Below are positions 8,347-32,634 of a stretch of 38,098 nucleotides of DNA, one piece after another. Made by a program: the position numbers and the translations under genes. Source of the DNA: a virus; the IMG/VR virus record IMGVR_UViG_3300003321_000683, positions 1-38,098 of that record. One strand, written 5' to 3'. Within the stretch, counting starts at the first letter, position 1, and every line of letters begins with the position of its first letter. Below the pieces are notes generated by a model that saw nothing but the letters and a program-made list of their open reading frames with translations, was not told where the DNA came from and searched no databases.

Positions 8347-8369
8347 CAATTCCAAGTGATTCTGTATCG

Positions 8370-9826: not shown

Positions 9827-10236
9827 GCAAACACGCCGGCGGCCGACCCAGGGTCGCCATCAATTGGGAAGAGTTCGACAAACTTTGCGGCCTGCAATGC
9901 ACCCTTGGCGAGATAGCCTCCTGGTTTGATTGCTCCCCTGACACAATCGAGCGCGCCGTCAATCGCGAGAAGAACACAAGTTTTGCGGACTATTTCGCCA
10001 AAAAGCGCTGCTCCGGCATGGTCTCGTTGCGCCGCGCACAATACCAAGCTGCCACAAAAGGTAACGCCACGATGCTTATCTGGCTCGGTAAGCAATGGCT
10101 CGGTCAGCGCGATACGAGGCAGGAATCCACCATCACCATCGACGACAAGCGCCCTGTGCGAAATAGGTCAATGGCGGAATTGGATGCATTAATTGACGCC
10201 GGCGAGATTGCCATTAAATCTATGACAAACAAGTAA
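9823..10236 (+). CDS. Terminase small subunit-like DNA-binding protein
   Basis: 137 residues, ATG overlapping the methyltransferase stop. GGRPRVAINWEEFDKLCGLQ leads into a helix-turn-helix (TLGEIASWFDCSPDTIERAV, about residues 29-48), followed by YFAKKRCSGMVSLRRAQYQA and GNATMLIWLGKQWLGQRD, a pattern shared by small terminase subunits and related phage HTH proteins. The small subunit recognises the packaging site and regulates the large subunit. The large subunit follows after one inserted gene, supporting the call. The C-terminus carries an amphipathic helix that could mediate ring assembly. Confidence 0.75.
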   Translation: MSKHAGGRPRVAINWEEFDKLCGLQCTLGEIASWFDCSPDTIERAVNREKNTSFADYFAKKRCSGMVSLRRAQYQAATKGNATMLIWLGKQWLGQRDTRQESTITIDDKRPVRNRSMAELDALIDAGEIAIKSMTNK

Positions 10237-10253
10237 GTCCCAATTTGGGACTT
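10235..10253. other. Perfect 19-base palindromic hairpin between TerS and the next gene
   Basis: AAGTCCCAATTTGGGACTT is a nine-base inverted repeat around one central T, beginning in the stop codon of the small terminase gene. As RNA it gives a stem of at least seven pairs (AAGTCCC/GGGACTT) with an AATTT loop. There is no T run after it, so it is more likely an RNA processing/stability or attenuating element than a full terminator. The ribosome site of the next gene (AGGAG) begins only a few bases downstream. Confidence 0.45.
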
Positions 10254-10272
10254 CTGACCAGGAGTATCCCAA

Positions 10273-11088: not shown

Positions 11089-11091
11089 TCA

Positions 11092-12555
11092 ATATCCACT
11101 CAGGCTATCCAGCTCGGTAATGATGCAGCCAGGGAGCGCCGTGCTCGTATATCTGCACGCGACTCCCTGCTTGCCTTTGCTTGCTATACCTATGCGGCAT
11201 TCCGCCCGGCGCGCCACCACCAGCTCATATGCAATGAGCTACAACGTATCGAGACAGGCGAGATTGACCGCCTTGTCATCGAGATGCCGCCGCGCCACGG
11301 CAAGAGCGAGCTGGGCTCTAAGCGCTTTCCTGCATGGCTACTTGGCCGCAATCCGACGTGGCAAATCATTGTCAGCTCATATGCAAAGGACCTGGCTCGT
11401 GGATTCGGTCGAGAGATCCGTAATCTGTTTAACGAGGATGACTTCCAGAATGTCTTCGAAGGCATCCGCCTGGCGCGTGACTCACGCGCTGCCGACCGGT
11501 GGAATACGAACAAGGGCGGTATATTTGTCGCTGCTGGTGTCGACAGCGGCATCACGGGCAAGGGCGCTGACGTTGCCATTGTTGATGACCCATTCAAGGG
11601 CCGCGACGAAGCCGATTCAAAGAAGCGCCGTGACCATGTCTGGAATTGGTACAACGCCGACCTGTACACGCGGCTAATGCCCCATGGACGAATTGTCATC
11701 ATCACCACCCGTTGGCATGAAGACGACCTGGTGGGCCGACTGGAGAAGCGAGAAAAAGAAGGCGGCGACAAATGGGAGCGCCTGTCACTTGCGGCAATTC
11801 TGAACGAGGATACCGACCACGAGGAGGCGCTATGGCCGGAGTGGTTCTCTCTTGAAGAGCTGCGCCATAAGCGAAAACAGCTCCTGATTAGCTCGCCACG
11901 CGACTGGTACTCACTGTTCCAGCAGCGTCCACCGAGCGCCTCGGGGACGTATTTCTCCAATGATTGGATTCAGTACTATGATGAGATACCGCCAGGCCTC
12001 CATATCTATGGGTCCAGCGACTTTGCGGTCACCGAAGGCAAGGGCGACTTCACCGAGCACGCGGTGTTGGGTATCGACGAGCGCGACGATATCTATATCC
12101 TCGATTGGTGGTACGGCCAGGCCAGCTCGGACGTCTGGACCGATGCCAAGATTGACCTGTGGCAGAAATGGAAACCCCTTGCCTGGTTTGGTGAGTCGGG
12201 GGTCATTCGACGCGCCACGGAGCCTGATACAGAGCGAGAATCGCACCGCAGGCGCGTTTACTGCCGTGAGGAGTGGCTGGCCCCCGTCAACGACAAGCCG
12301 ACGCGCGCCAGGGCCATCCAGGCGCGTTTTGCGCGGCGTAAGGTGTGGTTGCCACGCTCACCTTGGGCTGGGCGGCTGGTGGCACAACTGCTGGCATTCC
12401 CGAATGGCGAGCACGACGATGCCGTTGATGCATTGAGCCTGTTTGGCCTGGCACTTGATGAGACCCATCCCGCCATCATTGAGCGCATTCAGCACGTACC
12501 GCGCGACAGGTACGGTCGCCATGATGACGATGACCGTGATAGTTACCGGTCATAG
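11092..12555 (+). CDS. Terminase large subunit (ATPase-nuclease), apparent AUA start
   Basis: The frame gives 487 residues if it starts at an ATA codon at 11092 with GAGG (11081-11084) seven bases upstream, reading STQAIQLGNDAARERRA next. No ATG, GTG or TTG occurs in this frame between the preceding TAA and an internal ATG at 11284, which lies just before Walker A and cannot be the true start. Motifs: PPRHGKSE (Walker A, 66-73), VAIVDDP (Walker B, 161-167), IITTRWHEDD (coupling motif), SDFAVTEGKGDF (nuclease Asp 310) and GEHDDAVDAL (nuclease Asp 442/443/446). The protein pumps DNA into the head and makes the packaging cuts. Order and spacing are those of a P22/Terminase_6-type motor. Confidence 0.9.
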   Translation: MSTQAIQLGNDAARERRARISARDSLLAFACYTYAAFRPARHHQLICNELQRIETGEIDRLVIEMPPRHGKSELGSKRFPAWLLGRNPTWQIIVSSYAKDLARGFGREIRNLFNEDDFQNVFEGIRLARDSRAADRWNTNKGGIFVAAGVDSGITGKGADVAIVDDPFKGRDEADSKKRRDHVWNWYNADLYTRLMPHGRIVIITTRWHEDDLVGRLEKREKEGGDKWERLSLAAILNEDTDHEEALWPEWFSLEELRHKRKQLLISSPRDWYSLFQQRPPSASGTYFSNDWIQYYDEIPPGLHIYGSSDFAVTEGKGDFTEHAVLGIDERDDIYILDWWYGQASSDVWTDAKIDLWQKWKPLAWFGESGVIRRATEPDTERESHRRRVYCREEWLAPVNDKPTRARAIQARFARRKVWLPRSPWAGRLVAQLLAFPNGEHDDAVDALSLFGLALDETHPAIIERIQHVPRDRYGRHDDDDRDSYRS

Positions 12556-12599
12556 TCAATTATTTGCTGCATGCATCCACCTGGTCGACTCTGGTGCAA

Positions 12600-14546
12600 A
12601 TGGCTGACAGCGAAAAAAGCACCGAGAAGTCCAAGCGTATAGGCGGCAAGTCGCTTGAGGATTTGATTCAAGATTACGAGTCATTCGAGACGACAACCAA
12701 TCCCTGGCGAGAGCGCGCCCAGCGCGACCGCGATTATCGCGACGGCATCCAGTGGACCAGTGAAGAGCGCGCCAAGCTGGCCAAGCGCAAACAGCCATGT
12801 CTGACGTTTAACCGCATCGGACCCAAAATTGATTTTATTGTGGGCACCGAAATCAAGAGCCGCACCGACCCGAAGGCGCTACCGCGCACACCAGCCGAAT
12901 CAAAATCAGCGGATGCCGTGACTGATGCCATTCGCTACGTGGCCGATGATGACCAGACCGATACACAGGGCAAGCTCACCAAGGTGGCCGAAGACCTTTT
13001 TGTTGAGGGCTATGGCGGTGTTCATATCAGCACCGAAGTTTGTAACGACGAGGTGAAAATAGTCCTTGATGCAATCCCCTGGGACCGCATCTACTACGAC
13101 CCCAAGTCACGCCGGCCAGACTTCTCCGACTCACGCTACTTTGGTGAGGTGGTCTGGATGGATTACGACCAGGCGGTGGCCTTATGGCCTGATGCCGAGG
13201 ATGTTCTGGACGATTCTGTCGGCGATGGCAGCGACGGCTCACAAACATTCGACGACACACCACGCAATACGGCCTGGAGTGACGGCAAACGCCAGCGCGT
13301 GAAAATCTGCCATCAGTATTGGGTCAACAAGGAACGTATCAATGGCGAGATTGCCGATGTCTGGTACAGCGCCAAATTCAACAACCGTGGCTTCATTGAG
13401 GAACCAATCAAAGTCCCGTTTGTTGATGAGTATGACCGCAACTTCTGCTGCATTGTTCTCACCAGCAGCTCAGTAACCCGCGACGGCGAGCGCTACGGGG
13501 CTGTCCGTAACCTGATTGACCCACAGGATGAAATCAATCACCGGCGCAGCAAAGGGTTGCATTTTGGGACAATGCGCCAGGTGGCTATTACCCGCAAGGC
13601 GGTTGACGACCCAGACAAGTTGCGCACTGAGCTGGCTAAACCTGACGGTCTGATACTCGTCAATGGCGTAATCGGCCAGGATATGCAGGTGCTCAGTACC
13701 AACGACATGCAGGCCACGCATTTGCAGTTGCTCCAGGAGGCCAAGAGCGAAATCGACGCCATTGGACCGAATGCGGCATTGACAGGTTCCGACCCGCGCG
13801 CCCTATCTGGCCGCGCCATCATGGCCAAGCAGCAGTCAGGCTACGCCGAGCTGGAGAAGTATTTCGAAGCGATGCGCAAGCTGAAGCGCCGCGTATACAA
13901 AATCTACTGGTGGATTATCAGGAAGTCATGGACCGCTGAGAAATGGATTCGCGTCACTGACGATGCCGAGAATCTGCGCTTTGTGCCGCTGAACCAGCCC
14001 ATCACCAAGCGCATGATATTTGAGTCGCAAATTGAAGAGGCGGAGCGCGCTGGCGAGCCCATGGACCCGCAGATTATCCAGCAGATGATGCTGGACCCGA
14101 CGATGGACGAGGTTGTCGAGATACGCAACGACCTCGCCACGCTCGGTGTCGATATCATCATTGACGAATCGCCCGATGTGGTGGCGCTGCAACAGGAGCA
14201 ATTCGAAACACTGTCGGGATTGGCAGAGAAGGGTCTGCCGATACCGCCGGAGGCCATTGTTAACGCAAGCTCATTGCGCAACAAGAAGCAAATACTCGAC
14301 GCCATGAAGAACGGCGGCCAGCAGCCGCCAACGCCAGAGCAGCAACAGCAGATGCAACAGCAGCAACAAATGGCCATGCAAATGCAGCAGGTGGCGATGC
14401 AAAAAGAGGCTGCCGAGGTCGACGAGACCAATGCCAGCGCCATGCAGAAGCGCGCCAGCGCCGAGGAAACGCAGGTGGATACGCAAATTAAGCTCGGCCA
14501 AGCACGTGCAGGCATGATGCAGCCTTCACCTGCACCGCCTGCGTAA
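12600..14546 (+). CDS. Portal protein, P22 type
   Basis: 648 residues from ATG 12600; a TTG at 12564 in frame would add 12 unconvincing residues. The N-terminus has RDYRDGIQWTSEERAKLAKR and CLTFNRIGPKIDFIVGTEIK, then VAEDLFVEGYGGVHI and AIPWDRIYYDPKSRRPDFSD, all typical of P22-like portals, which are 600-725 residues. The dodecameric portal sits at the unique vertex, docks the terminase during packaging and anchors the tail. The C-terminal 75 residues are Gln/Met-rich (PEQQQQMQQQQQMAMQMQQ) and should form the coiled barrel helix seen in P22-type portals. It follows TerL after 44 bases. Confidence 0.9.
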   Translation: MADSEKSTEKSKRIGGKSLEDLIQDYESFETTTNPWRERAQRDRDYRDGIQWTSEERAKLAKRKQPCLTFNRIGPKIDFIVGTEIKSRTDPKALPRTPAESKSADAVTDAIRYVADDDQTDTQGKLTKVAEDLFVEGYGGVHISTEVCNDEVKIVLDAIPWDRIYYDPKSRRPDFSDSRYFGEVVWMDYDQAVALWPDAEDVLDDSVGDGSDGSQTFDDTPRNTAWSDGKRQRVKICHQYWVNKERINGEIADVWYSAKFNNRGFIEEPIKVPFVDEYDRNFCCIVLTSSSVTRDGERYGAVRNLIDPQDEINHRRSKGLHFGTMRQVAITRKAVDDPDKLRTELAKPDGLILVNGVIGQDMQVLSTNDMQATHLQLLQEAKSEIDAIGPNAALTGSDPRALSGRAIMAKQQSGYAELEKYFEAMRKLKRRVYKIYWWIIRKSWTAEKWIRVTDDAENLRFVPLNQPITKRMIFESQIEEAERAGEPMDPQIIQQMMLDPTMDEVVEIRNDLATLGVDIIIDESPDVVALQQEQFETLSGLAEKGLPIPPEAIVNASSLRNKKQILDAMKNGGQQPPTPEQQQQMQQQQQMAMQMQQVAMQKEAAEVDETNASAMQKRASAEETQVDTQIKLGQARAGMMQPSPAPPA

Positions 14547-14560
14547 TGTAGCATTGCCGA

Positions 14561-15565
14561 ATGCTCTTGGACCTAGGCCTAAATCTGACGCTGCGCCCTA
14601 TGCGCTATCCACAATTCTACGAGATGTACCGTAATGGCATCCGCAACACATGGACTGTCGAGGAGGTTGACTTCTCCATCGATGTCGCTCACCTGCGTGA
14701 CAAAATCAGTCCTGCCGAGCGGCATATGATACAACGACTGGTGGCGTTTTTCGCCACTGGTGATTCGATTGTCGCCAACAACGTTGTCCTGAGTATCTAT
14801 AGCCATATCAATTCGCCAGAGGCTCGTCTTTACCTGTCGCGACAATTGTATGAAGAAGCGCTGCATGTGCAGTTCTATCTGACGCTACTGGATACATATG
14901 TTCCTGACATCAAGGAGCGAGCACGCGCATTCGATGCAATTAAAAATATAGCATCAATAAAGGCCAAAGCAGATTTTTGCTTCCGCTGGATGGAAAGCAT
15001 TAATGACTGGCGATTTGTTTCACTGAACGAAAATGACAGACGTCGCGGGTTTTTGCTTAATCTTATTTGCTTCGCCACCTGCGTCGAGGGTCTCTTCTTT
15101 TTTGCCGCCTTTGCCTATGTATACTTCATGCGCTCAAAGGGGCTGCTGCCTGGTCTTGCCTCGGGGACCAATTGGGTTTTCAGGGACGAGTCCTGTCATA
15201 TGGCATTTGCGTATGAGGCCATCAGGATAATACGCAATGAGCAGCCAGAGTTATTTGATAACGACACAAAAATCAAAACAGCAGAAATGATTCAGCATGC
15301 AGTTGATATTGAATCGATGTTTGCTGATGACCTTTTGCAATACGGAATCACAGGCTTGTCGTCTGTAGGTATGCGTAAGTATCTTGAATATACGGCGGAC
15401 CAGCGGCTCGCCGGGCTTGGTCTACGGCCGCTATATGGCAGCAAGAATCCGTTCCCATTCATGGAGCTACAAGACGTACAGGAGCTAACCAACTTCTTTG
15501 AACGTCGCGTAGCTTCGTATCAGGTCGGCGTGACAGGAGAAGTATCGCTCACTGAATCGTTCTGA
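14561..15565 (+). CDS. nrdB: Class I ribonucleotide reductase, small (radical-carrying) subunit
   Basis: 334 residues from ATG 14561. All metal ligands and the radical tyrosine are present: Asp 68 in ATGDSIVANN, Glu 99 and His 102 with Tyr 106 in YEEALHVQFY, Glu 176 in CVEGLFFFAAF, and Glu 210 and His 213 in RDESCHMAFA. It therefore looks active and would supply the tyrosyl radical used by NrdA to make deoxynucleotides. Its setting is odd: it lies between portal and scaffold in the head operon, and no nrdA is found anywhere in the window, so it would have to pair with the host large subunit. No good ribosome site precedes it, suggesting coupling to the portal gene. Confidence 0.92.
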   Translation: MLLDLGLNLTLRPMRYPQFYEMYRNGIRNTWTVEEVDFSIDVAHLRDKISPAERHMIQRLVAFFATGDSIVANNVVLSIYSHINSPEARLYLSRQLYEEALHVQFYLTLLDTYVPDIKERARAFDAIKNIASIKAKADFCFRWMESINDWRFVSLNENDRRRGFLLNLICFATCVEGLFFFAAFAYVYFMRSKGLLPGLASGTNWVFRDESCHMAFAYEAIRIIRNEQPELFDNDTKIKTAEMIQHAVDIESMFADDLLQYGITGLSSVGMRKYLEYTADQRLAGLGLRPLYGSKNPFPFMELQDVQELTNFFERRVASYQVGVTGEVSLTESF

Positions 15566-15741
15566 AGAATTCCACAGGAAAAAACGGTCTTTTTTGCTGT
15601 GAGCCATTCTGCTGGCCTTGTGTTAATCAATTGACCCCCTATTTATTTGCGCCAATCCCATTGCCATCTAAACTGCCCCTATCATGCCACTGGTGTGATT
15701 TTCGTGCCGCCGACGATACGGGCGCGTAAGGAGCTGGCTGT
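15566..15741 (+). promoter_or_regulatory. Intergenic region before the scaffold gene with possible promoter
   Basis: This 176-base gap is the longest non-coding stretch in the head module. It holds AAAAAACGGTCTTTTTT just after the nrdB stop (a weak hairpin with T run, possibly a terminator) and then TTGTGT, 16 bases, TATTTA, which is at best a poor sigma70-like promoter. The element ATTTATTTGCGCCAATCCC (15641-15659) resembles sequences ahead of the tailspike gene and ahead of the gene at 28784. I infer separate expression of scaffold and capsid, needed in larger amounts, but the exact promoter is not certain. Confidence 0.3.
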
Positions 15742-16605
15742 ATGGCACTTGACAGTTTTCTGGATAGCGGGCCTGAAGTCGTCAATGATGCACCAGTGGC
15801 TGAATCTGGGCCAGTGGCAGACGAAGGCAAGGTTGAGCAGGAGCCGGCACCGGAAACGGAACCAGCCCCTGACGAATCCGAGCCGGACCCAGAAAAGGGC
15901 GTTAAAGAAGAAGAGGATTCGGAGCCGCCATCCGAAGACGAGCCAGATAACGGCAAGCCGCCACCTAAGCACGTTCCCTACGCCGCGCTTAAACAAGCGC
16001 GCGCAGAGAGGCAGCAACTAAAGCAACGCATTGCGGAGCTGGAGCGACAGGCAGGTGGTGGTACGCAGCAGCAGAATCAACAGAATCAGCAAGCACCCCA
16101 AAAGGGTGTGCCTCTGGAGTTTTGGCAGGGACCGGCAGAAGCACATGCCGAACTACGCGGCGAGGTGGATGCGCTGCGTGAGGAGTCCAGGCGAGAGAGG
16201 GCGCTAATCGAGCGCCGGGCATTGACACGATACAGTCACATGGCTGCAAAGCGTGAGTTCAGTGACTATGACGAGGTCATTGCGGAATTGACGGAGAAGG
16301 CACAGGCAGACCCTGTGCTGAATGCCACGGTCGAACGCCAGATTGATGCAAGCGACGACCCGGCGCGGACAGCATATGAGTTTGCATTGGCGCTTCGTGA
16401 ATTCTCCGGCATCGGCAATATTGCTGATTACAAAAAAACGCTGCGAGCTACTGTCACACGTGAAGTCGAAGCCAAACTACGCAAGGAAGCGGCGCTGAAG
16501 GCTGCCAAAGATGCCCCCAAGTCTTTGGCGTCTGTGCGTGGCGGCGGAACAAAAACGGCACCACCCGAACGCGATTTGACTCTGGGCGAAATCACAAAAC
16601 GATAG
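15742..16605 (+). CDS. Scaffolding protein
   Basis: 287 residues with AAGGAG eight bases before the ATG. The N-terminal 75 residues are extremely acidic and Pro/Glu-rich (PAPETEPAPDESEPDPEKGV), followed by YAALKQARAERQQLKQRIAE, a coiled-coil region with a Gln-rich linker, another helical domain, and a basic C-terminus with KRA/R patches (REVEAKLRKEAALKAAKDA). Acidic disordered N-terminus, central coiled coil and basic C-terminal helices are the hallmark of phage scaffolding proteins, which guide capsid assembly and then leave. Position immediately before the capsid gene supports the call; there is no sequence-level catalytic motif. Confidence 0.8.
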   Translation: MALDSFLDSGPEVVNDAPVAESGPVADEGKVEQEPAPETEPAPDESEPDPEKGVKEEEDSEPPSEDEPDNGKPPPKHVPYAALKQARAERQQLKQRIAELERQAGGGTQQQNQQNQQAPQKGVPLEFWQGPAEAHAELRGEVDALREESRRERALIERRALTRYSHMAAKREFSDYDEVIAELTEKAQADPVLNATVERQIDASDDPARTAYEFALALREFSGIGNIADYKKTLRATVTREVEAKLRKEAALKAAKDAPKSLASVRGGGTKTAPPERDLTLGEITKR

Positions 16606-16639: not shown

Positions 16640-17707
16640 ATGGCAGAGACTACAGTCAGTTCGACTAATGTCGTTACACAGTGGTCGAAAAAGTTTTTCA
16701 GTGAGTACATTCGCGGCAACCGATTCATTCGCTACATGGGCGATGATGAGGATTCCGTTATCCAGTTGGTCGAGGACCTGACCAAAAAGGCCGGCGAGAC
16801 GGTCAACGTGTCGTTTATCGCCAAGCTGTCGAATACCGGCGTTACTGGCAGCACCACGCTGGTAGGCAATGAAGAGGCGTTGTCTAATTATGGTCACAAG
16901 CTCACGGTGGCGTTCTTGCGCAATGCCGTGCGTGTCGATGAATCAGAGATGCAGAAGTCCGAGATTGACCTACTCAATGCCGGCAAGAAGGCATTGATGA
17001 ACTGGGCCAAGGAGAAAATCCGCGACGATATCATCACGGCAATGGGAATGTTTAATACTGGCACGGGAAATGGCACCGCTTATGCGTCTGCTTCCGAAGC
17101 CACCAAGGATGCGCATCTGGCCAACAACAGCGACCGCTTTTTGTTTGGCGCTGCATTAAGCAACAATGCAGCCAATGACCACTCGGCCGCATTGGCGAAC
17201 GTGGATAACACCAGTGACAAGTTCACTGCGGCGCGTGTTGGTCTGATGAAGCGCATTGCGAAAACAGCATCGCCACTGATTCGTCCAATCAGAGTACGGG
17301 AGGACGAGGAGTGGTACGTGATTTTTACGGGCTCACGTGCGTTCCGTGACCTGAAGACCGACCTGCTCACGGTGCATGAATATGCGGCAGACCGTGGTAA
17401 AAATAACCCAATTTTTGTGGACGGGGACCTTATCTATGATGGATGCGTCATCCGAGAAATCCCAGAGATTGGTGTCATTACGGGCGTTGGCAACGGCGGC
17501 ATCGATGTACAGCCGGCGTATCTGTGCGGTGCGCAGGCCGTGGCGGTTGCGTGGGCGCAGAGAACCAAGGCCACTACGGAAGATTTTGACTACGACTTCA
17601 AACATGGTGCGGCTATTTCCGAAAACCGTACCGTTCAGAAGTTGATGTACAATTCGAAGCAGAATGGCATCGTCACGGGATATTTTGCAGGCGTAGCCGA
17701 CTCGTAA
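16640..17707 (+). CDS. Major capsid protein (N4-gp56/DUF4043-like)
   Basis: 355 residues, GAGG before the ATG. After an N-terminal helix region (VVTQWSKKFFSEYIRGNRFI) comes DLTKKAGETVNVSFIAKLSN, then TTLVGNEEALSNYGHKLTV and RNAVRVDESEMQKSEIDLLN, followed by a long helix (ALMNWAKEKIRDDIITAMGM). This succession matches the N4 gp56-like / DUF4043 major capsid group, which has the HK97 fold. The C-terminal half contains HEYAADRGKNNPIFVDGDLI and EDFDYDFKHGAA, also usual in the group. Place after the scaffold and before connector genes fits. A strong hairpin terminator follows its stop. Confidence 0.85.
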   Translation: MAETTVSSTNVVTQWSKKFFSEYIRGNRFIRYMGDDEDSVIQLVEDLTKKAGETVNVSFIAKLSNTGVTGSTTLVGNEEALSNYGHKLTVAFLRNAVRVDESEMQKSEIDLLNAGKKALMNWAKEKIRDDIITAMGMFNTGTGNGTAYASASEATKDAHLANNSDRFLFGAALSNNAANDHSAALANVDNTSDKFTAARVGLMKRIAKTASPLIRPIRVREDEEWYVIFTGSRAFRDLKTDLLTVHEYAADRGKNNPIFVDGDLIYDGCVIREIPEIGVITGVGNGGIDVQPAYLCGAQAVAVAWAQRTKATTEDFDYDFKHGAAISENRTVQKLMYNSKQNGIVTGYFAGVADS

Positions 17708-18001: not shown

Positions 18002-18336
18002 GCTACACAGCCAACGACGTGATGACGCGCGTCCTACAAAATATCGGCGTACTCGCCACTGGCGAGTCAGCTACGGCTGAGGACGACGCTCTGGTGACGC
18101 CCATCATCACGAACAAATATGCCGAGCTGCAACGGTTGGGTGTGGCGCCATTCGCTTTATCTGCTGTCCCGGAATGGGCCTTTGAGGGTGTGGTGTTGTT
18201 TGTGGCGGCCGCTGCGGCTCCGGCATTTGGGAGGCCTCTTGATGCATCAATGGCGGAATACGGTCTTGGCTTGCTACGTGAGCAGATGGTTGAGAGCAAC
18301 GGTAGCGGCTTACCAATCATGGCGGATTACTTTTAA
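17998..18336 (+). CDS. Head-tail connector/tail accessory protein (P22 gp4-like position)
   Basis: 112 residues. SYTANDVMTRVLQNIGVLAT is an N-terminal helix pair of the type in phage head-completion proteins, and YAELQRLGVAPFALSAVPEWAFE leads into an Ala-rich hydrophobic helix (GVVLFVAAAAAPAFG). The protein lies between capsid and the gp10-like gene, where P22 has gp4, which docks beneath the portal. The length is shorter than P22 gp4 (166 residues), so the functional equivalence is likely but not certain. Starts and stops overlap neighbours by ATGA and TAATG. Confidence 0.65.
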   Translation: MSYTANDVMTRVLQNIGVLATGESATAEDDALVTPIITNKYAELQRLGVAPFALSAVPEWAFEGVVLFVAAAAAPAFGRPLDASMAEYGLGLLREQMVESNGSGLPIMADYF

Positions 18337-19718
18337 TGTTGACCCCTGTCCCGTTTGCCATCGCCACCAATGTTGGCCGCAGTACTCCGGCCACATCAGA
18401 ACGCGTCGTAAACCTAATACCCGTCGCAAACCCTCCTGGCTCAAAAACGCCCTACACGTTGCTTGGCGCGCCTGGGCTGGTTGAATGGCAAAGCGTTGGC
18501 ATTGGTCCCATTCGTGGCATGCGGACCATGGGCACCTTTCTCTATGTGGTGAGCGGACCGGAGCTGTACCGCCTCGACCAGAGCGGCACACAGACCTATA
18601 TTGGACTCATTGACGGTACGCAGCCGGTTACGATGGCCGATAATGGGTACCAGCTATCCATCGTTGCTGATTCATTGACATACGTGGTGACTGGCACAAC
18701 TCTGACAACAGTTTCCGCTGTCGACGCACGTAGTGTTACCGTGCAGGACGGCTACGCTATCTACGTCACCCGCAACACGGGTGAATTCGTTATCAGTGAA
18801 ATCGCTGACTCTGGCGACGTGGACCCTGCCGAGTTTGCGAGCGCTGAATCCAACCCGGATAATCTGCTCACGGTGGTGTCGGCCAATCGCGAATTGTGGC
18901 TGATGGGCGAGCGCAGTATTGAAGTCTGGTACAACTCCGGCGACCCGGAGTTCCCCTTTGTTCGCAATGCGGCTGGCGTTATCAATCGCGGCGCCCTGTC
19001 GCCCTGGAGCGTGGTGGTTATTGATGGACAAGTCTACTGGTTGGGTGATGACGGGCTGGTGTACCGCAATGCTGGTTACGTTCCTCAGCGCATCAGTACG
19101 CACGCCATCGATTACGCCATTGGTCAATTTGACTACGGCCAACAACGCGCCGCCGTCGCATCGACCTACTCGCAAGAGGGTCACACATTCTACGTGCTGA
19201 CGTTCCAGAATGGGACATACGTATTCGACATCAGCACCGGTCTCTGGCACGAGAGGCAGACCTACGGACAGACCCGGTGGCGGGTGTCCTGCATGCTGCC
19301 GGCGTTTGGCGAATTACTCGCTGGCGATTTTGCGGATGGCAAGATTTATCATGTCGATCTCGATACGTACGTCGACGACGACCAGCCCATCCAGCGCATT
19401 GTTGACACGCAGCCGATTGGCGACGGCATCAACCGCATCCTGATGCACTCGTTTCAACTGAGCACTGAAGCCGGCACTGGCCTGATTGGCGGCCAGGGTG
19501 CCGACCCAGAAGTAATTCTTCAGTGGTCAGATAACGGCGGCCGCACCTGGAGTAATGAACACCACCGGCCATTGGGGCCCATTGGCGCCTACGCGTATCG
19601 GACCATCTGGCGCAGGCTGGGCATGTTCCGTCAGCGCTCAATGCGCATCATTATCTCGGACCCCATCAAAATAGCGATTTATGGCGCATATGCCGAGTTG
19701 TCGCAGGCAGGTGGCTGA
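18336..19718 (+). CDS. Packaged-DNA stabilisation protein (P22 gp10-like)
   Basis: 460 residues; P22 gp10 is about 470. The N-terminal RVVNLIPVANPPGSKTPYTL and LLGAPGLVEWQSVG, the repeated beta-propeller-like blades with GTFLYVVSGPELYRL, the block LWLMGERSIEVWYNSGDPEF, then GALSPWSVVVIDGQVYWLGD and the late WSDNGGRTWSNEH are typical of the gp10 family. In P22 this protein sits under gp4 and plugs the portal channel so packaged DNA stays in. Neighbours in front (gp4-like) and after (needle/ejection genes) agree with the P22 order. Confidence 0.85.
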   Translation: MLTPVPFAIATNVGRSTPATSERVVNLIPVANPPGSKTPYTLLGAPGLVEWQSVGIGPIRGMRTMGTFLYVVSGPELYRLDQSGTQTYIGLIDGTQPVTMADNGYQLSIVADSLTYVVTGTTLTTVSAVDARSVTVQDGYAIYVTRNTGEFVISEIADSGDVDPAEFASAESNPDNLLTVVSANRELWLMGERSIEVWYNSGDPEFPFVRNAAGVINRGALSPWSVVVIDGQVYWLGDDGLVYRNAGYVPQRISTHAIDYAIGQFDYGQQRAAVASTYSQEGHTFYVLTFQNGTYVFDISTGLWHERQTYGQTRWRVSCMLPAFGELLAGDFADGKIYHVDLDTYVDDDQPIQRIVDTQPIGDGINRILMHSFQLSTEAGTGLIGGQGADPEVILQWSDNGGRTWSNEHHRPLGPIGAYAYRTIWRRLGMFRQRSMRIIISDPIKIAIYGAYAELSQAGG

Positions 19719-20343: not shown

Positions 20344-21612
20344 ATGGGTTGGTTGGCAGCAGGCGCAGCAGCAGCGGGACTGGGTTCCGCCCTTGGCTCA
20401 ATCTACGGCAGCTACAAGCAAGCGCAGCAGGCACGAGAAGCGCGACGCTTCTTGAAGAAGCAAGGCGAAAAGGCCGTCGGCGACATCACGGCTGGGCGCG
20501 ACGACGCCATCAAGGCATACCGCAGCGGCCAGCAGCAGGCGTATAACCAGCGCATCACCGGCATGAACACCGCCGCCACCCAGCTTGGCGCCGGATACGA
20601 TACCGCCGACGAGAAGATTAACCAGGGATACAATGCGGCAGAAGGTAACATCAAGGACTATGGCCAGCGCGGACTGGCTTCACTTGCTGCCGCACGCGAC
20701 GCCAGTACTGGAGCCATCAACCAGGGTGCTGATGCGGCTATCGGGTCGTATCAGTCCGGAGCGAGGCAGGCGCGCAGCGACTTACAAAATCAATACAATC
20801 AGTACCGTGGGGACCTGGCCGGCTATCAAGACATCGGCACGGGTGCGCTGGCGCAATTGAATGCGCTGCAAGCGAATCCGCAGGCGGCGCTAGAGAATTC
20901 ACCAGGCTACCAGTTTCGTCTGGCGCAGGGCCAGAAGGCATTGGAGCGCTCAGCAGCAGCACGTGGCCGCAGCATCAGTGGTGGCCAGCTTAAATCACTA
21001 CAGAACTACGGCCAAGGCATGGCTTCGAATGAATACGGCAATCTGTTTAATCAACAGCTAGCACTGGCCGGCATTGGCCAGAACGCCAGCAATAGTCTGG
21101 GTGCCGCTGGTCAGAACCTTGGGGCCAATCTAAGCCAGCTTGGCCAATGGTCAAGCGGCGGCATTGCCAATGCAGAGACATCGCGCGGCCAGAATCTGGC
21201 CAGCATCGAGGGTCAATACGGTACGAATGCGGCCAATCTGAACACCGGGATGGGTGATAGGCTTGCCGGATTGAATACTGGACGTGCTGGCGTATTGGCC
21301 GGTAATGCCATCGGACGCGGCACTGGACTGGCGAATCTCACCAGTGGCACGTACAACGCACTGGCTGGTGATGCCATGACAACAGGTAGTCAGATTGGTG
21401 GAGCGCAGATGAATGCGGCAGGCGGCATGGCCAATGCGCGCATGGGCACCGCCAATAACATGGCGACACAGAACACCAATATCGGCAATGCCTATGCTGG
21501 TGGCGCTGCTGGTGTGGCGAATGGAGTAAACGATACCATCGGCAATTTGGCCTACCTCTACAAACTGGGTGCATTTGACGGCGGTGGTGGCGGTGCCGAA
21601 ATCAGCATGTAA
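20344..21612 (+). CDS. Ejection-type internal virion protein (gp7-like position)
   Basis: 422 residues with GGAGG seven bases before the ATG. The N-terminus is a Gly/Ala-rich hydrophobic segment (LAAGAAAAGLGSALGSIYGS) then a basic helix (QAQQAREARRFLKKQGEKAV). The rest is a long low-complexity helical region with repeated Ala/Gly/Asn/Gln units such as AANLNTGMGDRLAGLNTGRA. This composition, size and position directly upstream of two other large helical proteins matches the DNA-ejection protein set of short-tailed phages, which leave the virion with the DNA and form a channel across the envelope. Assignment rests on architecture rather than sequence identity. Confidence 0.65.
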   Translation: MGWLAAGAAAAGLGSALGSIYGSYKQAQQAREARRFLKKQGEKAVGDITAGRDDAIKAYRSGQQQAYNQRITGMNTAATQLGAGYDTADEKINQGYNAAEGNIKDYGQRGLASLAAARDASTGAINQGADAAIGSYQSGARQARSDLQNQYNQYRGDLAGYQDIGTGALAQLNALQANPQAALENSPGYQFRLAQGQKALERSAAARGRSISGGQLKSLQNYGQGMASNEYGNLFNQQLALAGIGQNASNSLGAAGQNLGANLSQLGQWSSGGIANAETSRGQNLASIEGQYGTNAANLNTGMGDRLAGLNTGRAGVLAGNAIGRGTGLANLTSGTYNALAGDAMTTGSQIGGAQMNAAGGMANARMGTANNMATQNTNIGNAYAGGAAGVANGVNDTIGNLAYLYKLGAFDGGGGGAEISM

Positions 21613-26391: not shown

Positions 26392-28728
26392 ATGACCGCT
26401 TTCTTTTTGCCACACCAACAAATCGTCAATGGTTCTGGCTCGCCGTATTCTGGCGCCAAGGCTTATTTTTATTTAACCGGAACAACGACGCCGAAGGCGG
26501 TCTATACGAACGTCGGACTGACCATCGCGCACACGCAACCTGTCACTGCTGATTCTGCTGGCCGGTGGCCGGCTATCTATCTCGCCACTGACGCGGCCTA
26601 TAATGTCGAGATAAAAACCAGCGCCGGCGTGTCGATATTTTCAGAAGACCCGTGGCGGCCTGCGGTTCCGTACAACACATTCACAACGCTACTGGTCTCG
26701 CATAATCGCGTAGCCAGTAATCCGGTCTACTATGGCGCGCTTGGTGATGGGGTGGCGGACGAGTCATCATATGTGCAAGCCGCAATTAATGCGGCGACTG
26801 GTGTTGTTGATTTGCTTGGGTTGACTTACCGTTGCGATTCGCAACTCAATATTCCCAGCGATATCGAAATCAAAAACGGCACGCTGAACTTCAGTAACAG
26901 CATATCAACCAATGGATTCCTGTCTTGTCTTGGCAGCATTGGCACCGCCGAGGCCATGACGATGACCACGTCTTCCCGTCAAATTACAGCAACAACATCA
27001 CCCGTTGCTGTCGAAGGGGACCTGATTCGTATTCATTCGTCCAACGCCATTGGTGCAGGCACTGGTCGCGCTGAGTTTCATCGTGTTGAGAGTGTCTTGG
27101 GCAGCGACATATTTCTCCAAAGCTACACGTCAGACCTGGCTTACTCCACAACGCCATTCTATGCCGTCGTGTCGCCCAATACACGCGTGCGCTTTACGGA
27201 CCTGCACATTATTGGCTCTGGCACCACCGGCACGTACGGCATCTACATGGAGTATTGCGACAACGTGCGCATACGAAACTGCAAATTTACCGATATCTAC
27301 GAGTTTTGCGTCTACATGGAGAACTCTGTCGATATTCATGTCATGGATACCACCTGCCTGAACTCTGGCGGTGCTGTTCACGTCAACGGGTGCGAGCGCG
27401 TTATTATGCGCGGCATTGAGGACAATGGCTATACTGAAAATAATCCGCGCATCATTGTCGGCATGCCGGGCAACAGTGACCCCGGGGACCAGAACGGCAT
27501 CGATGTGGTGTCATCAAAAATCACCATTTCGGAATGCAGTTTTACCAATGGGGCAGTGGTTAATCCATGCTCAATTGGCCTCTATCTTTACTCCCGCCAG
27601 GTTACTGTTGACCGCTGCAATCTCATTGGTGGTACCGACGGTATCGTGCTGGAGTCGCTGCGCGATGTATCCATCAAAAATTGCACCATTAGGCGCAATA
27701 TTGACTTCCAGGGCGCTGGCATACGGGGTGCCATATGCACCGGCGTCTCGCATTTTAATTGGTCAATAATGGGCAATGATGTTGGTGATTCGTCAACAGC
27801 TTCATCGCCAATAGATTACGGCATTGTGCTCACAAGCAATGGTAACTCCGCAAACCTCGACCGCTTGCTAATTAGTGATAACTCGATGTTTGTTGGCACG
27901 AGGGGCATTGTAATTGACCTGCTTCTGGGCACATCTAAAACAATTAAGAATGTCAATATTCGCGACAACGTAATTTACTGCATCAATGACGACTCGGTTG
28001 GGATTGATTCTTCTGTGGCTCTGGCCAATACACTAGCAGAGCACTGGAAGATAAACGGCAACCATATAGAAATCACAGGAACCAATCCGTACGGGATACG
28101 CATGCTGGGCACCGATACCTCGGCACGCATGCAGCATATCAATATACACGGCAATCACATCAAGAGACCATCGGGGTCTGGTGTGTATGGCATACAGGTA
28201 TCTAACGTTATCGGAGCCAGCATCAACGGCAATAATATGCAGGGAGAATGGGGCAGTGGTATTTATTTTGAAAAGTCCAATTCGCCTGCATTTGCGCATG
28301 AACCATGCGGCGTCATAGCCAATAATGTCATCAGCGGCGGAAGCGGCACATATGCCAGCAATGGCATACAGGTCAAAACATCGAGCGGTAATATCTACGA
28401 CGTAGCAATCAGTGGCAACTCTATCCGTGCCTATGATAGGGCTGTCTATCTGCTGACAACCTCTGGTGATATTATTGACACATCGGTTGTCGGAAATGCG
28501 ATGCGCACCACAAACCTAACAACCGCCGATGTTGTCCAGGCAGTCGGCGCCGCAGCCAACGATATCAATACCGTCGCGGTTGTCGGAAATGCGTCCTCTG
28601 GTGGCAGATATGGCGCCAACTTCACCAATGACCTATACTCCAATCATAGCGCCAATGCCGCCAGCGGCTCCGGCACTGCGGCCTCTAATGGCGCAACGGC
28701 AGTAGACGGAACCAACACACCTCCATAA
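26392..28728 (+). CDS. Tailspike/tail fibre with right-handed beta-helix
   Basis: 778 residues from ATG 26392 (an ATG at 26359 would add 11 atypical residues). Residues 1-90 form a head-binding type adaptor (LPHQQIVNGSGSPYSGAKAY, YLTGTTTPKAVYTNVGL, VTADSAGRWPAIYL). About 115-700 is a parallel beta-helix of the pectate-lyase type, starting YYGALGDGVADESSYVQAAI and continuing with repeated N-G/I-x-N-C turns (RIRNCKFTDIYEFCVYMENS, VSIKNCTIRRN, LLISDNSMFVG). The C-terminus is Ala/Ser/Gly-rich. Such trimers bind and often degrade surface polysaccharide. No signal peptide. It is the first gene of the host-interaction module. Confidence 0.85.
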   Translation: MTAFFLPHQQIVNGSGSPYSGAKAYFYLTGTTTPKAVYTNVGLTIAHTQPVTADSAGRWPAIYLATDAAYNVEIKTSAGVSIFSEDPWRPAVPYNTFTTLLVSHNRVASNPVYYGALGDGVADESSYVQAAINAATGVVDLLGLTYRCDSQLNIPSDIEIKNGTLNFSNSISTNGFLSCLGSIGTAEAMTMTTSSRQITATTSPVAVEGDLIRIHSSNAIGAGTGRAEFHRVESVLGSDIFLQSYTSDLAYSTTPFYAVVSPNTRVRFTDLHIIGSGTTGTYGIYMEYCDNVRIRNCKFTDIYEFCVYMENSVDIHVMDTTCLNSGGAVHVNGCERVIMRGIEDNGYTENNPRIIVGMPGNSDPGDQNGIDVVSSKITISECSFTNGAVVNPCSIGLYLYSRQVTVDRCNLIGGTDGIVLESLRDVSIKNCTIRRNIDFQGAGIRGAICTGVSHFNWSIMGNDVGDSSTASSPIDYGIVLTSNGNSANLDRLLISDNSMFVGTRGIVIDLLLGTSKTIKNVNIRDNVIYCINDDSVGIDSSVALANTLAEHWKINGNHIEITGTNPYGIRMLGTDTSARMQHINIHGNHIKRPSGSGVYGIQVSNVIGASINGNNMQGEWGSGIYFEKSNSPAFAHEPCGVIANNVISGGSGTYASNGIQVKTSSGNIYDVAISGNSIRAYDRAVYLLTTSGDIIDTSVVGNAMRTTNLTTADVVQAVGAAANDINTVAVVGNASSGGRYGANFTNDLYSNHSANAASGSGTAASNGATAVDGTNTPP

Positions 28729-28771: not shown

Positions 28772-28790
28772 TACGCATAGGCTATGCGTA
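28772..28790. repeat. 19-base palindrome covering the start codon of the next gene
   Basis: TACGCATAGGCTATGCGTA is a perfect nine-base inverted repeat around a single central G. The ATG of the gene at 28784 lies within its right arm. As RNA it would hide the start codon in a hairpin; as DNA it is a symmetric operator-like site. Either reading predicts control of the exported-protein genes that follow. Confidence 0.55.
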
Positions 28791-29302
28791 ATCTTATCCT
28801 TGCTGCACTGATTGCCTTCGGCATTGGTTCTGTTGCCAGGGCAGATACTGCAATCCCAATCAATTCAGACGGTGGCGAGCGCAATCACCCTCGCTGCCGA
28901 CAATTAAACGTATCCGGAGGCAGCGTAAACCTGCTCAGTGCTGTAGCCGGCAATGCCACCATCGCCACGCGCACCATCACCATACCTGTCGCTGACGGGT
29001 GGACCGATGGGCGCATACAGGTGGACATCACTGAAGGCGGCACAATTACAGCGATGACCGTAACAATGACCTGTTCGCTCAATGGCGGGTCTACTTACGG
29101 AAACATCAACACCATAGAGCCCGGTTCGTCAGGGGCCATCAACATGTATGCGGCAACATGGACGAAGCCAATCACCACATCATCGGTCGAGACATTTGAT
29201 TTTGACGCCAGCCGCTGCGACTCCATTAAAATCGTCATTGGCTTAACGGGTGGTGGCGCCAGTGACTTCATTACGGCCATTGGCCGCCTGTGTGCCATAT
29301 GA
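28784..29302 (+). CDS. Exported beta-rich protein, unknown function (first of four)
   Basis: 172 residues. Residues 1-20 form a typical Sec signal peptide: basic start, hydrophobic core (LILAALIAFGIGS) and an ARA-D cleavage-like site. The mature part is beta-rich with several cysteines and small polar residues, including TVTMTCSLNGGSTYGNINTI and VETFDFDASRCDSIKIVIGL, reminiscent of virion-surface domains in phages. The start codon lies in a palindrome. It is not an expected feature for an internally assembled virion protein to carry a signal peptide, so it may act in the host envelope. Its stop overlaps the next start (ATGA). Confidence 0.6.
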   Translation: MRNLILAALIAFGIGSVARADTAIPINSDGGERNHPRCRQLNVSGGSVNLLSAVAGNATIATRTITIPVADGWTDGRIQVDITEGGTITAMTVTMTCSLNGGSTYGNINTIEPGSSGAINMYAATWTKPITTSSVETFDFDASRCDSIKIVIGLTGGGASDFITAIGRLCAI

Positions 29303-30780
29303 AGCGCCACTGGTTAATCGCTGGCGCATTGATGATTGCTGCGGCGGTGGCGTGGGCCGATATGCCGTCATCTCGCAATCGCTGGGGTCTCGTGGTGCAG
29401 TCGCCGTCACTCAGTAGCTCTGGCGGTACGCTTACCGGAGGCATTCTGGTATCAGGTGCCTGCGCCACGATGGCGAGTGGTGATGTATGCTGTTACGACA
29501 ACAACGGCGTCCAGTGCGGGTTTCCGGTAACGGATGTTGCCCCTGACGGATTCCGTCTGTACGGACATAGTTCGTCACCACTCACGACGTCCGGTGCCGG
29601 TGGCAACCTGCGCATTGCAGGCGGAGAAGGGGCAACATATGGACTCGTGGCCAATGCCACTTGCGGCGCCGGAGATACAATAACACTGACCGTCAGTGGA
29701 GATGCCACACCCAATGTATGTACGCGCGATGCTACTACTACGGCTGCCGTATCTGCCCACGCCGGCACATTTGTGTGTAATGCAACACCTCAGACTCTCG
29801 CCACAAACATAGCGACGTGTCTTAATGGCGTCTCTGGAATCCATGCTTGTGCTGGGTCAAGCTGCGCTTCGACTGCCGGCTTTACAGGGACAGACGGTGT
29901 CCTTTATGTGATGCGGGACTCGACCGACCCGAGCGTGGCAGCATTTACCTTGACCAGCAGTGATACCGCCGTAATCAATCCCGTCAACGGGACAGGCGGC
30001 ACCGTATCCATTCATAACGGCGTCGGTGCAAATACCAGTGGCGAGTTCCTGTTTGGTGTCGGTAGCGTCAATACGCTGAGCGGCTCGCAGTACACCTGGT
30101 CATCCAGTGCAACCAACGCATCGACGGCCGCCGACACAGGCATCAAGCGCATCGGTGCTGCGCATATGGGCATATCTGACGGAAGCACGGGCAATGGCCG
30201 ACTTCAGACAGCGGATGGTGCAGCGGCAACACCGGCAATTCACGGATCTACCGATGCAACAGATGGTGCCTACTTCGACGGCTCGCAGTTTTATATTACG
30301 CTTAATTCAACCAGAGTATTCAGCAAGGATACCACTGCAATCAGCTGGGGCTCCGGTAGCGCGGATAACTGCATCAATCGCGTCGCCGGCGCACGGAGCT
30401 ATGTCGATAACTGCGGTGGTGGCGTTGGGACGCTTGGTAACAACCGACGCGCCAATCCACAGACCAGCAATTTCTCTGTCAGCGGCATCACGGATGCGGC
30501 AGATGTCTATACGAATACCGGAGCCAGTGGAAAAATAACAGGAACACTTCCGGCGGCGGCGGCCGGGATGTTCATGACGTTCTATTGCCAGAATACAAAC
30601 GACTTACAGATTACGGCAGTGGGCGACGACACCATTACAGTTGCAGGAACGGTCACGGGCGCTGCTGGGTCATTTTGCTTGGATGACGCCGGCGACTCCA
30701 TAACCCTGGAAGCTATATCGACAACGCAATGGGTGGCCATCGCATCGGTCGGCACTCCGACATCCGGAACTTGCCCATGA
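29299..30780 (+). CDS. Exported fibre-like protein
   Basis: 493 residues from ATG 29299. Residues 1-20 are a Sec-type signal (KRHWLIAGALMIAAAVAWA then D). The mature protein is Thr/Ser/Gly-rich and beta, with domains like those of tail fibres: FRLYGHSSSPLTTSGAGGNL, LRIAGGEGATYGLVA, cysteine pairs, DATDGAYFDGSQFYITLNST, and a C-terminal region with ISGITDAADVYTNTGASGKI and TTQWVAIASVG. Fibre-like sequence plus a signal peptide is unusual. Possible roles: a decoy receptor-blocking fibre in the periplasm or outer membrane (superinfection exclusion), or a mis-predicted hydrophobic N-terminal anchor on a virion fibre. It is coupled to neighbours by ATGA on both sides. Confidence 0.6.
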   Translation: MKRHWLIAGALMIAAAVAWADMPSSRNRWGLVVQSPSLSSSGGTLTGGILVSGACATMASGDVCCYDNNGVQCGFPVTDVAPDGFRLYGHSSSPLTTSGAGGNLRIAGGEGATYGLVANATCGAGDTITLTVSGDATPNVCTRDATTTAAVSAHAGTFVCNATPQTLATNIATCLNGVSGIHACAGSSCASTAGFTGTDGVLYVMRDSTDPSVAAFTLTSSDTAVINPVNGTGGTVSIHNGVGANTSGEFLFGVGSVNTLSGSQYTWSSSATNASTAADTGIKRIGAAHMGISDGSTGNGRLQTADGAAATPAIHGSTDATDGAYFDGSQFYITLNSTRVFSKDTTAISWGSGSADNCINRVAGARSYVDNCGGGVGTLGNNRRANPQTSNFSVSGITDAADVYTNTGASGKITGTLPAAAAGMFMTFYCQNTNDLQITAVGDDTITVAGTVTGAAGSFCLDDAGDSITLEAISTTQWVAIASVGTPTSGTCP

Positions 30781-31193
30781 GAAAAAATTGGTTACTATTT
30801 CTCGGCGTTCTGATTATAGCGGTCGCTGCCTATGCTGGGACAATCAATGTTTCGGACTTCACTTCAGACTCTGCATGGGTGGAGCCTAGTCTGCAAAATG
30901 GCTGGGTGAATTTTGGCGGCGGATTTGCCAACGTACGCTATCGCAAGGATGGAAATACGATTCACCTCAGTGGCTCGGCCGCCCCGGGCACATTAACGCT
31001 GGATACGTTGATTTTTACGCTTCCGGCCGGTTATCGACCGAGCGCCACAATCAAGATGACATCGCCAACGCTTCAGACGCTTAGTCTGGCTCTTGGCCAT
31101 ATCAACATCGAGTCCGATGGCTCGGTGCGCTGGGAAGGACCAGCGCTGCTCGTAACGCTCGCTGCTTTTGATGGTCTGTCTTTTCACTTGTGA
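30777..31193 (+). CDS. Exported protein with tail-fibre-tip-like domain
   Basis: 138 residues from ATG 30777 (overlap ATGA). Residues 1-20 form a signal peptide (RKNWLLFLGVLIIAVAAYA then G). The mature domain contains NGWVNFGGGFANVRYRKDGN, TIHLSGSAAPGTLTLDTLIF and TLPAGYRPSATIK, a recognisable pattern of the small beta-domain at the tips of many phage tail fibres (the 'NGW-N-GGG---V-YRKDG ... LP-GYRP' module). It is therefore probably a receptor-binding-type domain sent across the inner membrane. How it would reach a virion, if it does, is not clear. Confidence 0.65.
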   Translation: MRKNWLLFLGVLIIAVAAYAGTINVSDFTSDSAWVEPSLQNGWVNFGGGFANVRYRKDGNTIHLSGSAAPGTLTLDTLIFTLPAGYRPSATIKMTSPTLQTLSLALGHINIESDGSVRWEGPALLVTLAAFDGLSFHL

Positions 31194-31202
31194 GGGATGC
31201 GG

Positions 31203-31568
31203 ATGAATAAAACACTTGCGGCAGTAATGGCCGGCGCGATTCTTGGCGCTGGCGGAACCGTAGCATTTGAAATCGCAGCAGCGCCTGGCGATGCGCTCAT
31301 TGACACCATTGTCAGTCAACGCACGGCCACTGCGCCAGAGGCAGCAGCAGCCGATACGCTTGCGACGGCCATCTTCGGGGATACGTCGCTCGGCGATGTG
31401 GTTGTACTCAAGCATCTCGATAACGGTACCTGGCTTGTCGAGGGACGCGGTTATGTGGCTGTCGCAGTTAATCAACTTCCGAACAACGCGCAGTATCGCG
31501 TCGTGGGGCGCATTGGGGCCAATGGACGACCTAATAAATTTCCAGAACCCAGAGGCGGCGGCAACTAA
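31203..31568 (+). CDS. Exported or membrane-anchored small protein, unknown function
   Basis: 121 residues from ATG 31203 (GAGGG six bases upstream; a second ATG lies two codons before). A hydrophobic N-terminus (TLAAVMAGAILGAGGTVAFE) is followed by an Ala/Thr-rich stretch, then a compact domain (LGDVVVLKHLDNGTWLVEGR, GYVAVAVNQLPNNAQYRVVG) and a Gly/Pro tail. It could be a signal peptide or an uncleaved anchor. Fourth in a row of envelope-directed proteins, directly before the lysis genes. No family recognised. Confidence 0.55.
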   Translation: MNKTLAAVMAGAILGAGGTVAFEIAAAPGDALIDTIVSQRTATAPEAAAADTLATAIFGDTSLGDVVVLKHLDNGTWLVEGRGYVAVAVNQLPNNAQYRVVGRIGANGRPNKFPEPRGGGN

Positions 31569-31581: not shown

Positions 31582-31788
31582 ATGGAAATCAACGCATCGG
31601 TGGTTGTTGGCGGGCTGGCGTTGGTGCAGACACTGGTATTGTTTTTGATTGGTCGTATCTGGACAGTCAATGACAAGCGCATCGAGAAGATAGAAGGAAA
31701 AGTAGACCAGCTTCTGACAAATCAAATTCGCATTGCCTCACGGCTCTTGCCGCCGGAGGTGGTGACCGAAAAAGGAATCTCCCTATGA
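31582..31788 (+). CDS. Small membrane protein with coiled tail (holin-associated type)
   Basis: 68 residues from ATG 31582 with AGGGG seven bases upstream. One hydrophobic helix (ASVVVGGLALVQTLVLFLIG) is followed by a short coiled coil (NDKRIEKIEGKVDQLLTNQI) and a cytoplasmic tail. Proteins of this shape (XhlA-like) accompany holins in lysis cassettes, but here the order is helix then coil, so the relationship is by analogy. Its stop overlaps the following holin-like gene (ATGA). Confidence 0.5.
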   Translation: MEINASVVVGGLALVQTLVLFLIGRIWTVNDKRIEKIEGKVDQLLTNQIRIASRLLPPEVVTEKGISL

Positions 31789-32177
31789 GCGCTGTCTATA
31801 TTCTCAAAGTCGCGACCGCTTTGGTGATGGTGGTGCGCGGGTTCAGTAGCGATGCATTTCAGGCGATATTCCCAGAACGGTACAGATGGAAAAGCTGGTC
31901 GATCTATTATCAGCTCATCCTGGTATTCTTGCTGTCGTTCGGTGGTGCCTTGGTCACAGAATTAACCAAGGACCCATCGATTGCCAGCGCTGCCGTAAAG
32001 GCGTTATTGGCTGCACTGGCTGCTGTTGGTCTTCACAAATCAACGTCAGATATAGGCAGGGAACAAACCAGAAACGCTGTTAAGGAGAATCCACTGTATG
32101 AGCCTGGGTCAATCAGAACGATTATCAGTCCCCTTATCCCTATTGACAAGGCAATCCTCCAGAAGAAAGGGATCTAA
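31785..32177 (+). CDS. Holin-like membrane protein
   Basis: 130 residues. There are two or three hydrophobic segments: residues 3-19 (weak, VYILKVATALVMVVRG), 44-60 (LILVFLLSFGGALVTEL) and 67-83 (AAVKALLAALAAVGLHK), then a charged, proline-containing tail. Short multi-pass protein directly upstream of a lytic transglycosylase-type endolysin fits a holin, which would form the membrane hole at lysis. No sequence family is recognised, so the call depends on topology and position. Confidence 0.55.
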   Translation: MSAVYILKVATALVMVVRGFSSDAFQAIFPERYRWKSWSIYYQLILVFLLSFGGALVTELTKDPSIASAAVKALLAALAAVGLHKSTSDIGREQTRNAVKENPLYEPGSIRTIISPLIPIDKAILQKKGI

Positions 32178-32178
32178 A

Positions 32179-32634
32179 TTGCGCGTACCGGGCATACTCC
32201 TCCCCCTGAAATCCCGCATCAAGCGTTACGGTCCCATCATCAAAGAATCCTTCGAGCTGCGCGGGCTCCCTTATCTTTGGGGCTATGCGATTGCTATGCA
32301 TGAGTCGGAATTTAAACCCTGGGCACTTAATCCAGACGGTGCAGATGGTCGGCGCGGCGGAGCCTGGGGGTTATTCCAGGTCACAGTGCTGACAGCATGC
32401 GGACACGGATTCACTGGCGACGCCAAGGCCCTGCTAGACCCGGAGATATGCTCAGACTATGCAGCGCGCATCGTCGAAGAGGCACGCAAAAAATACGGCG
32501 ACAGCTTCAAAGATATTGCATCATACTATAACTCCGGCAAGCCCTACGCACTGGCACCGGAGCGCACCAAGACCAAATACATTCCATCAGTGATGGCTCA
32601 TTATAAGAAATTCGTCGACCAGCTTTCAGTCTGA
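32179..32634 (+). CDS. Endolysin, lytic transglycosylase (SLT) type
   Basis: 151 residues from TTG 32179, with AAAGGGA seven bases upstream; the frame is open further upstream but only inside the holin gene. The fold signature is that of soluble lytic transglycosylase/lysozyme-like enzymes: AIAMHESEF with the catalytic Glu 42, then GGAWGLFQVT, and a late SYYNSGKPYA segment. It would cut the glycan strand of peptidoglycan between MurNAc and GlcNAc. No signal peptide, so release depends on the holin. No spanin genes are obvious. Confidence 0.8.
   Translation: MRVPGILLPLKSRIKRYGPIIKESFELRGLPYLWGYAIAMHESEFKPWALNPDGADGRRGGAWGLFQVTVLTACGHGFTGDAKALLDPEICSDYAARIVEEARKKYGDSFKDIASYYNSGKPYALAPERTKTKYIPSVMAHYKKFVDQLSV

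Follow-up and report, generated by a model that had tools for sequence, protein, structure and literature searches.

A possible exported adsorption cassette between the tailspike and lysis genes of an uncultured P22-like podovirus

Results and Discussion

Gene order from the head genes to the endolysin

The window, by which we mean the whole stretch of DNA analysed, comprises 38,098 bases (positions 1 to 38,098 of the uncultured virus record IMGVR_UViG_3300003321_000683) and, judged by its predicted head and tail genes, is from a P22-like podovirus. The P22-type set consists of the large terminase (11284-12555), the portal (12564-14546), the major head protein (16640-17707), the head-closure protein Hc3 of the P22 gp10 type (18336..19718, plus strand; phrog_578, 4e-120), which served as the query for relatives, and an ejection protein (20344-21612). 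The tailspike (26392..28728, plus strand) joins a P22-like head-binding domain at residues 1-87 to a right-handed β-helix (Pfam Beta_helix, 5e-14; phrog_7458 tail spike, 1e-18). This head-binding, or docking, domain aligns with its counterparts in many other phages and occurs in a single copy in the window record, where a profile search found the spike as its sole match, at 26395-26664.

Between the tailspike and the holin and transglycosylase genes lie four plus-strand genes, here called S1 to S4, and the coordinates, strand and clustering behind the tailspike reported for them in the first-pass annotation were all confirmed. S1 (28784..29302) encodes 172 AA, with a predicted signal peptide (SP; MRNLILAALIAFGIGSVARA, next residue D) and a predicted β-sandwich domain containing four Cys. 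S2 (29299..30780) encodes 493 AA, with a predicted SP (MKRHWLIAGALMIAAAVAWA, next residue D) ahead of a repetitive, fibre-like protein. S3 (30777..31193) encodes 138 AA, with a predicted SP (MRKNWLLFLGVLIIAVAAYA, next residue G) and what appears to be a stand-alone phage receptor-binding head, and S4 (31203..31568) encodes 121 AA, with a short hydrophobic N-terminus, either SP or anchor, and a small domain. Overlaps of 4 bp (ATGA) at S1/S2 and at S2/S3, together with a gap of only 9 bp from S3 to S4, make the four frames look translationally coupled. An alternative start for S4 is present at 31197, and a GTG lies upstream of S2 at 29290. These genes are followed by a small protein that, from its sequence, has a single transmembrane segment at its N-terminus and a tail of charged residues (31582..31788, plus strand), for which family searches gave nothing significant and which probably belongs to the lysis genes; by a probable holin (31785..32177, plus strand; phrog_1299 holin, E 0.11), which matches positions 13831-14208 of a related locus, L141 (Z 9.6); and by a lytic transglycosylase (SLT) endolysin (32098..32634, plus strand; Pfam SLT, 7e-10).

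Predicted signal peptides of S1 to S4

Signal peptides were scored with a home-made scorer, not SignalP, under which six known SPs used as a test set received 4.6-5.7. The scores were 5.48 for S1, 5.71 for S2, 6.40 for S3 and a borderline 4.75 for S4, and among 20,000 whole-protein shuffles of each the real score was matched 16, 0, 0 and 188 times, respectively. The tailspike and the other predicted virion genes of the window scored as non-SP. In the cultured Rhodoferax podophage P26218 the scorer flagged one annotated gene, gp24, which is also the single SP gene published for that phage on the basis of SignalP (PMC4657236), its other matches falling in unannotated frames. As a background, 15 of 1480 ORFs of at least 250 AA in related loci scored at least 5.0 (1.0%, true positives included), and four successive genes with an SP or anchor against this 1% count in favour of an exported role in adsorption.

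The first-pass annotation had assigned a Sec-type signal or hydrophobic anchor to all four genes. For S1 to S3 the predicted SPs are convincing and of a strong Sec type, with full n-, h- and c-regions and AXA-type sites, whereas S4 is borderline and its N-terminus could be a membrane anchor instead of a cleaved SP. No lipobox was found in S1 to S4, none of which has a Cys at its predicted cleavage site or close to it, and an o- or u-spanin lipobox is absent from S4. It is conceivable that the hydrophobic N-termini are retained segments, with which the virion might for example dock or contact a membrane, instead of processed export signals, and the leaders of S4 and of the L141 spike, which are short and lack a clear cleavage site, would fit such a role. 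The complete leaders of S1 to S3 do not, and one would in any case expect such a hydrophobic leader to enter the Sec pathway; we consider this explanation very unlikely.

A receptor-binding head behind a signal peptide

S3 consists of its SP and 118 AA with almost no shaft. Its PHROG matches were minor tail proteins (1e-10), and its matches among PDB sequences were at chance level only. When S3 was modelled without its SP by AlphaFold (AF2) from a 28-sequence alignment (pLDDT 89, pTM 0.82), the model resembled the receptor-binding protein (RBP) head of Listeria phage PSA gp15 (Z 13.8, 104 residues aligned), the tail needle (knob) of Pseudomonas phage Pa223 (Z 13.7) and the RBPs of the lactococcal phages bIL170, TP901-1 and p2 (Z 10.5-11.8). 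The best 18 matches of the structure search (Z 9.5-13.8) were nearly all phage RBPs, baseplates and needle knobs, the next match stood at 7.2, and fibre heads of eukaryotic viruses reached a Z of about 7 or less. On this model, the mature part of S3 is a phage receptor-binding head fold, and the fibre-tip module proposed in the first-pass annotation is real.

Although S3 shares its predicted fold with these RBPs and the Pa223 needle over about 95-111 residues (Z 10.5-13.8), the heads of the latter form the C-terminus of longer virion proteins lacking an SP, while S3 is a lone head behind one. Homologues without the hydrophobic start, named in the first-pass annotation as evidence against export, do exist for the S3 domain: an SP was found in 0 of 47 viral homologues, all of which carry the domain inside tail-type proteins, mostly much longer ones. 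S3 therefore looks like a head freed from a fibre and given an SP, and since the homologues are domains within tail-type proteins, the fibre tip seems to have been recruited and the SP is not thereby shown to be false.

A bare, nearly shaftless receptor-binding head with an SP, whose homologues are located in tail-type proteins, could occupy a receptor without a virion, and for this reason receptor masking or superinfection exclusion is a serious rival explanation. According to it, S3 and its partners would be exported late and occupy the host's own receptor, either from the periplasmic side or once released, so that progeny could not adsorb again to the infected cell or to remains of it. An SP alone, however, reaches the periplasm only, and neither a lipobox nor an outer-membrane anchor accompanies it here; the late placement beside the lysis genes would leave exclusion little time; and no lysogeny gene was found in the window among the families tested. 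The exported lipoproteins Llp of phage T5 and Ltp of phage TP-J34 are able to block receptors or DNA entry, but S1 to S4 differ from them in lacking a lipobox and in that S3 is a predicted receptor-binding head. A search against PADLOC defence families returned only a chance-level match (S1, E 0.039). With no lipobox, no defence-family match and no lysogeny gene found, nothing points positively to an exclusion lipoprotein of the classical type. Masking would also leave unexplained the SPs that other phages carry on the virion-docking domain itself (see below), and we regard it as unlikely.

S1, S2 and S4 and the layout of related loci

The remaining proteins were less informative. An AF2 single-sequence model of S1 was all β and of low confidence (pLDDT 58, pTM 0.59). 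A fold search with this low-confidence model returned generic β-sandwiches (Z at most 8.4), small uncharacterised phage proteins and tail modules, and S1 was assigned no function on this basis. S2 is repetitive and rich in Gly, Ser, Thr and Ala, with 15 Cys, and had no significant family, its PHROG match being sub-threshold (E 0.065). Thus, where two fibre-like proteins had been proposed, S3 is supported by fold and family and S2 appears fibre-like by composition only. Family searches with S1, S2 and S4 gave no match, comparison of S1 and S2 with PDB sequences gave chance-level matches only, and neither tblastn nor peptide patterns detected relatives of S1, S2 or S4 in phages and viral contigs, or of S2 in plasmids and genomes.

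The closest layout was found in L141, where a spike is followed by two SP proteins of 171 and 637 AA, an anchored 137-AA protein and a holin, in that order. L141 is homologous to the window in Hc3 (38%), the ejection protein, the spike (36% over 304 AA) and the holin. It differs in that the window spike lacks an SP and in that S3 has no counterpart in L141, and homology of S1, S2 and S4 to their positional counterparts was not supported (Z at most 2.0), so that only position and export signal recur. With regard to the question raised in the first-pass annotation of whether the four genes travel together in other phages, the arrangement thus recurs and the genes themselves do not detectably do so. 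Elsewhere in the same phage, on L292 (5112-6053, minus strand), an SP-bearing, Cys-containing gene of 313 AA lies between the portal and scaffold-like genes.

A second P22-like genome, L186 (IMGVR_UViG_3300024286_000002), contains four successive SP genes of 392, 785, 545 and 952 AA at 7923-15951, the first of which is the docking domain (spike adaptor) itself. Apart from this domain, the cassette proteins of L186 and L141 were not found in named phages, and an L186 query gave no match in genome contigs. The last of the four has Ig-like domains of the ASPM/Hydin type as well as fn3 domains, a possible hint at the host group.

Such loci also bear on the possibility that the set is mixed, with S4 and the next small membrane protein forming a lysis cassette and S1 to S3 being unrelated exported accessories in a late-region insertion hotspot that extends from spike to holin. 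P26218 has its single SP gene in the corresponding position, S1, S2 and S4 are without family matches, and a precedent exists in the SP-bearing esterase gp40 of PBR31, for which a role in aiding lysis has been suggested (PMC10975493). On the other hand, S3 is clearly a receptor-binding head by its predicted fold, the ATGA overlaps join S1 to S3, and the run of SP genes in L186 begins with the spike adaptor; a mixed set is in our view quite unlikely.

Signal peptides at the tailspike loci of other phages

For comparison we used loci with the docking domain of the window spike. From the spike onwards, the spike included, 12 of 427 ORFs of at least 150 AA scored as SP-bearing, versus 0 of 519 before it (P 7e-5, counted on distinct ORFs in loci that are not independent), and three of the 12 (in L187, L198 and L148) resemble lysis or other proteins. 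P22-type head-binding domains normally make up the first residues of cytoplasmic proteins. In L186, L159, L208, L145, L141 and L221, the last but one with a weaker leader, the SP was on the docking domain itself, which was the single copy found in each of these six records; all are uncultured contigs, and the count holds per record and not per complete genome. We considered that the SP-encoding starts might be artefacts and that translation really begins a little further downstream, but Shine-Dalgarno-like matches oppose this: five of the six spikes have one ahead of the SP-encoding start, and no alternative start just after the SP has one.

These six SP-bearing docking domains make virion attachment the more probable role relative to superinfection exclusion. 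Of the proposal in the first-pass annotation, which named an exported masking or exclusion system or else a way to decorate virions or cells, the export signals, the fibre tip and the clustering stand, while the comparative evidence leans towards attachment to the virion. Set against an exported role in adsorption is their rarity (six of about 155 examined). Moreover, the P22-like domain is present on the window spike, which has no SP, and absent from S1 to S4, in which no virion-docking domain was recognised, and this counts against joining of S1 to S4 to the particle.

In the cassette-bearing genomes, mature SP proteins averaged 1.9% Cys versus 0.27% in other virion-type genes (P 3e-5, values not independent), and the docking domains of L145 (7899-8060) and L186 (7923-8060) share a CxxC motif (CTGC) where others mostly read LSGG. 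The distribution is uneven, with 0.2% Cys in the SP-bearing docking protein of L208, 0.9% in those of L145 and L141, and none in S3 and S4, and β-helix spikes without an SP can reach at least 2%. The enrichment fits folding in an oxidising periplasm, as weak evidence and not as proof, because SP-less spikes can also be Cys-rich and SP-bearing ones are not uniformly so.

Proposed route to the virion and related systems

Our preferred interpretation, which we hold tentatively and at a little short of an even chance, is that S1 to S3, and perhaps S4, make up a cassette of exported adsorption proteins in a P22-like podovirus, proteins which at lysis either join virions or are set free. Encoded beside the lysis genes and probably co-expressed with them, these proteins would pass through Sec into the periplasm and mature there, where the Cys-rich S1 and S2 may gain disulfides. 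Once the holin, the transglycosylase and membrane rupture mix periplasm with cytoplasm, the exported proteins would meet finished particles and could be added to the tailspike or the tail needle as further receptor-binding components, S3 forming the tip, and a part of them may remain free. We infer the export and cleavage, the disulfides, the timing and the joining to virions, and only the order of the genes leads us to guess that S3 caps S2 as its tip. P22 tailspikes are the last addition to finished particles, and their addition also works in extracts, which makes late joining feasible.

Tailed-phage fibres and tailspikes are normally regarded as cytoplasmic proteins. Our results suggest that, in some tailed phages, components of the attachment apparatus leave the cytoplasm while the cell is still intact; for the phages compared here as a whole, the most economical view is that some receptor-binding proteins are exported ahead of lysis and encounter virions once the envelope gives way. 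A more specific proposal, which we find doubtful though worth stating, is that some short-tailed phages from the environment have receptor-binding proteins that are exported by Sec, matured in the periplasm, possibly with disulfide bonds, and joined to the virion only at lysis, the window being a version that exports added fibres and not the main spike. If true, export before lysis would be an additional stage in phage assembly, periplasmic disulfide formation would become available to phage receptor-binding proteins, and these would be kept apart from heads until release. Annotation would change as well, as the S genes of the window otherwise pass as hypothetical secreted proteins.

Parts of this picture have precedents. 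The MAT fibre proteins of Bdellovibrio are exported, SP-bearing, fibre-like trimers with phage-type tips (PMC10769870), from which it follows that fibre folds can follow an SP. They resemble our proteins in having an SP on a fibre protein, as seen for S3 and, by composition, for S2, but they belong to a predatory bacterium, which encodes them for its own use, and not to the tail region of a phage. In P26218, gp24 (YP_009222574) is, like S1 to S4, an SP protein (169 AA), located between the spike-like gp26 and the endolysin, but it is a single gene with no recognised fibre domain and no detected homology to S1 to S4. Exported fibre-like proteins and phage SP proteins near lysis genes are thus already known. 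An SP on a tailspike docking domain and a cassette of SP-bearing fibre proteins were not found described in the open-access literature, which is weak evidence of absence, and no described system matched the set, in agreement with its first-pass description as a candidate for an undescribed one.

Other features of the window

Searches of the window for tRNAs and Rfam families gave no match. Three further plus-strand genes were observed: a ribonucleotide reductase small subunit (14561-15565; phrog_86, 1e-63), whose gene is an insertion that separates the portal gene from the head genes following it; a ParB-like domain fused to a DNA methyltransferase (8702-9826; phrog_498, 1.7e-78) upstream of the terminase; and, between the methyltransferase and terminase genes and far from the tail genes, a protein (10273-11088) with an SO2946-like C-terminal domain (Pfam, 3.5e-6).
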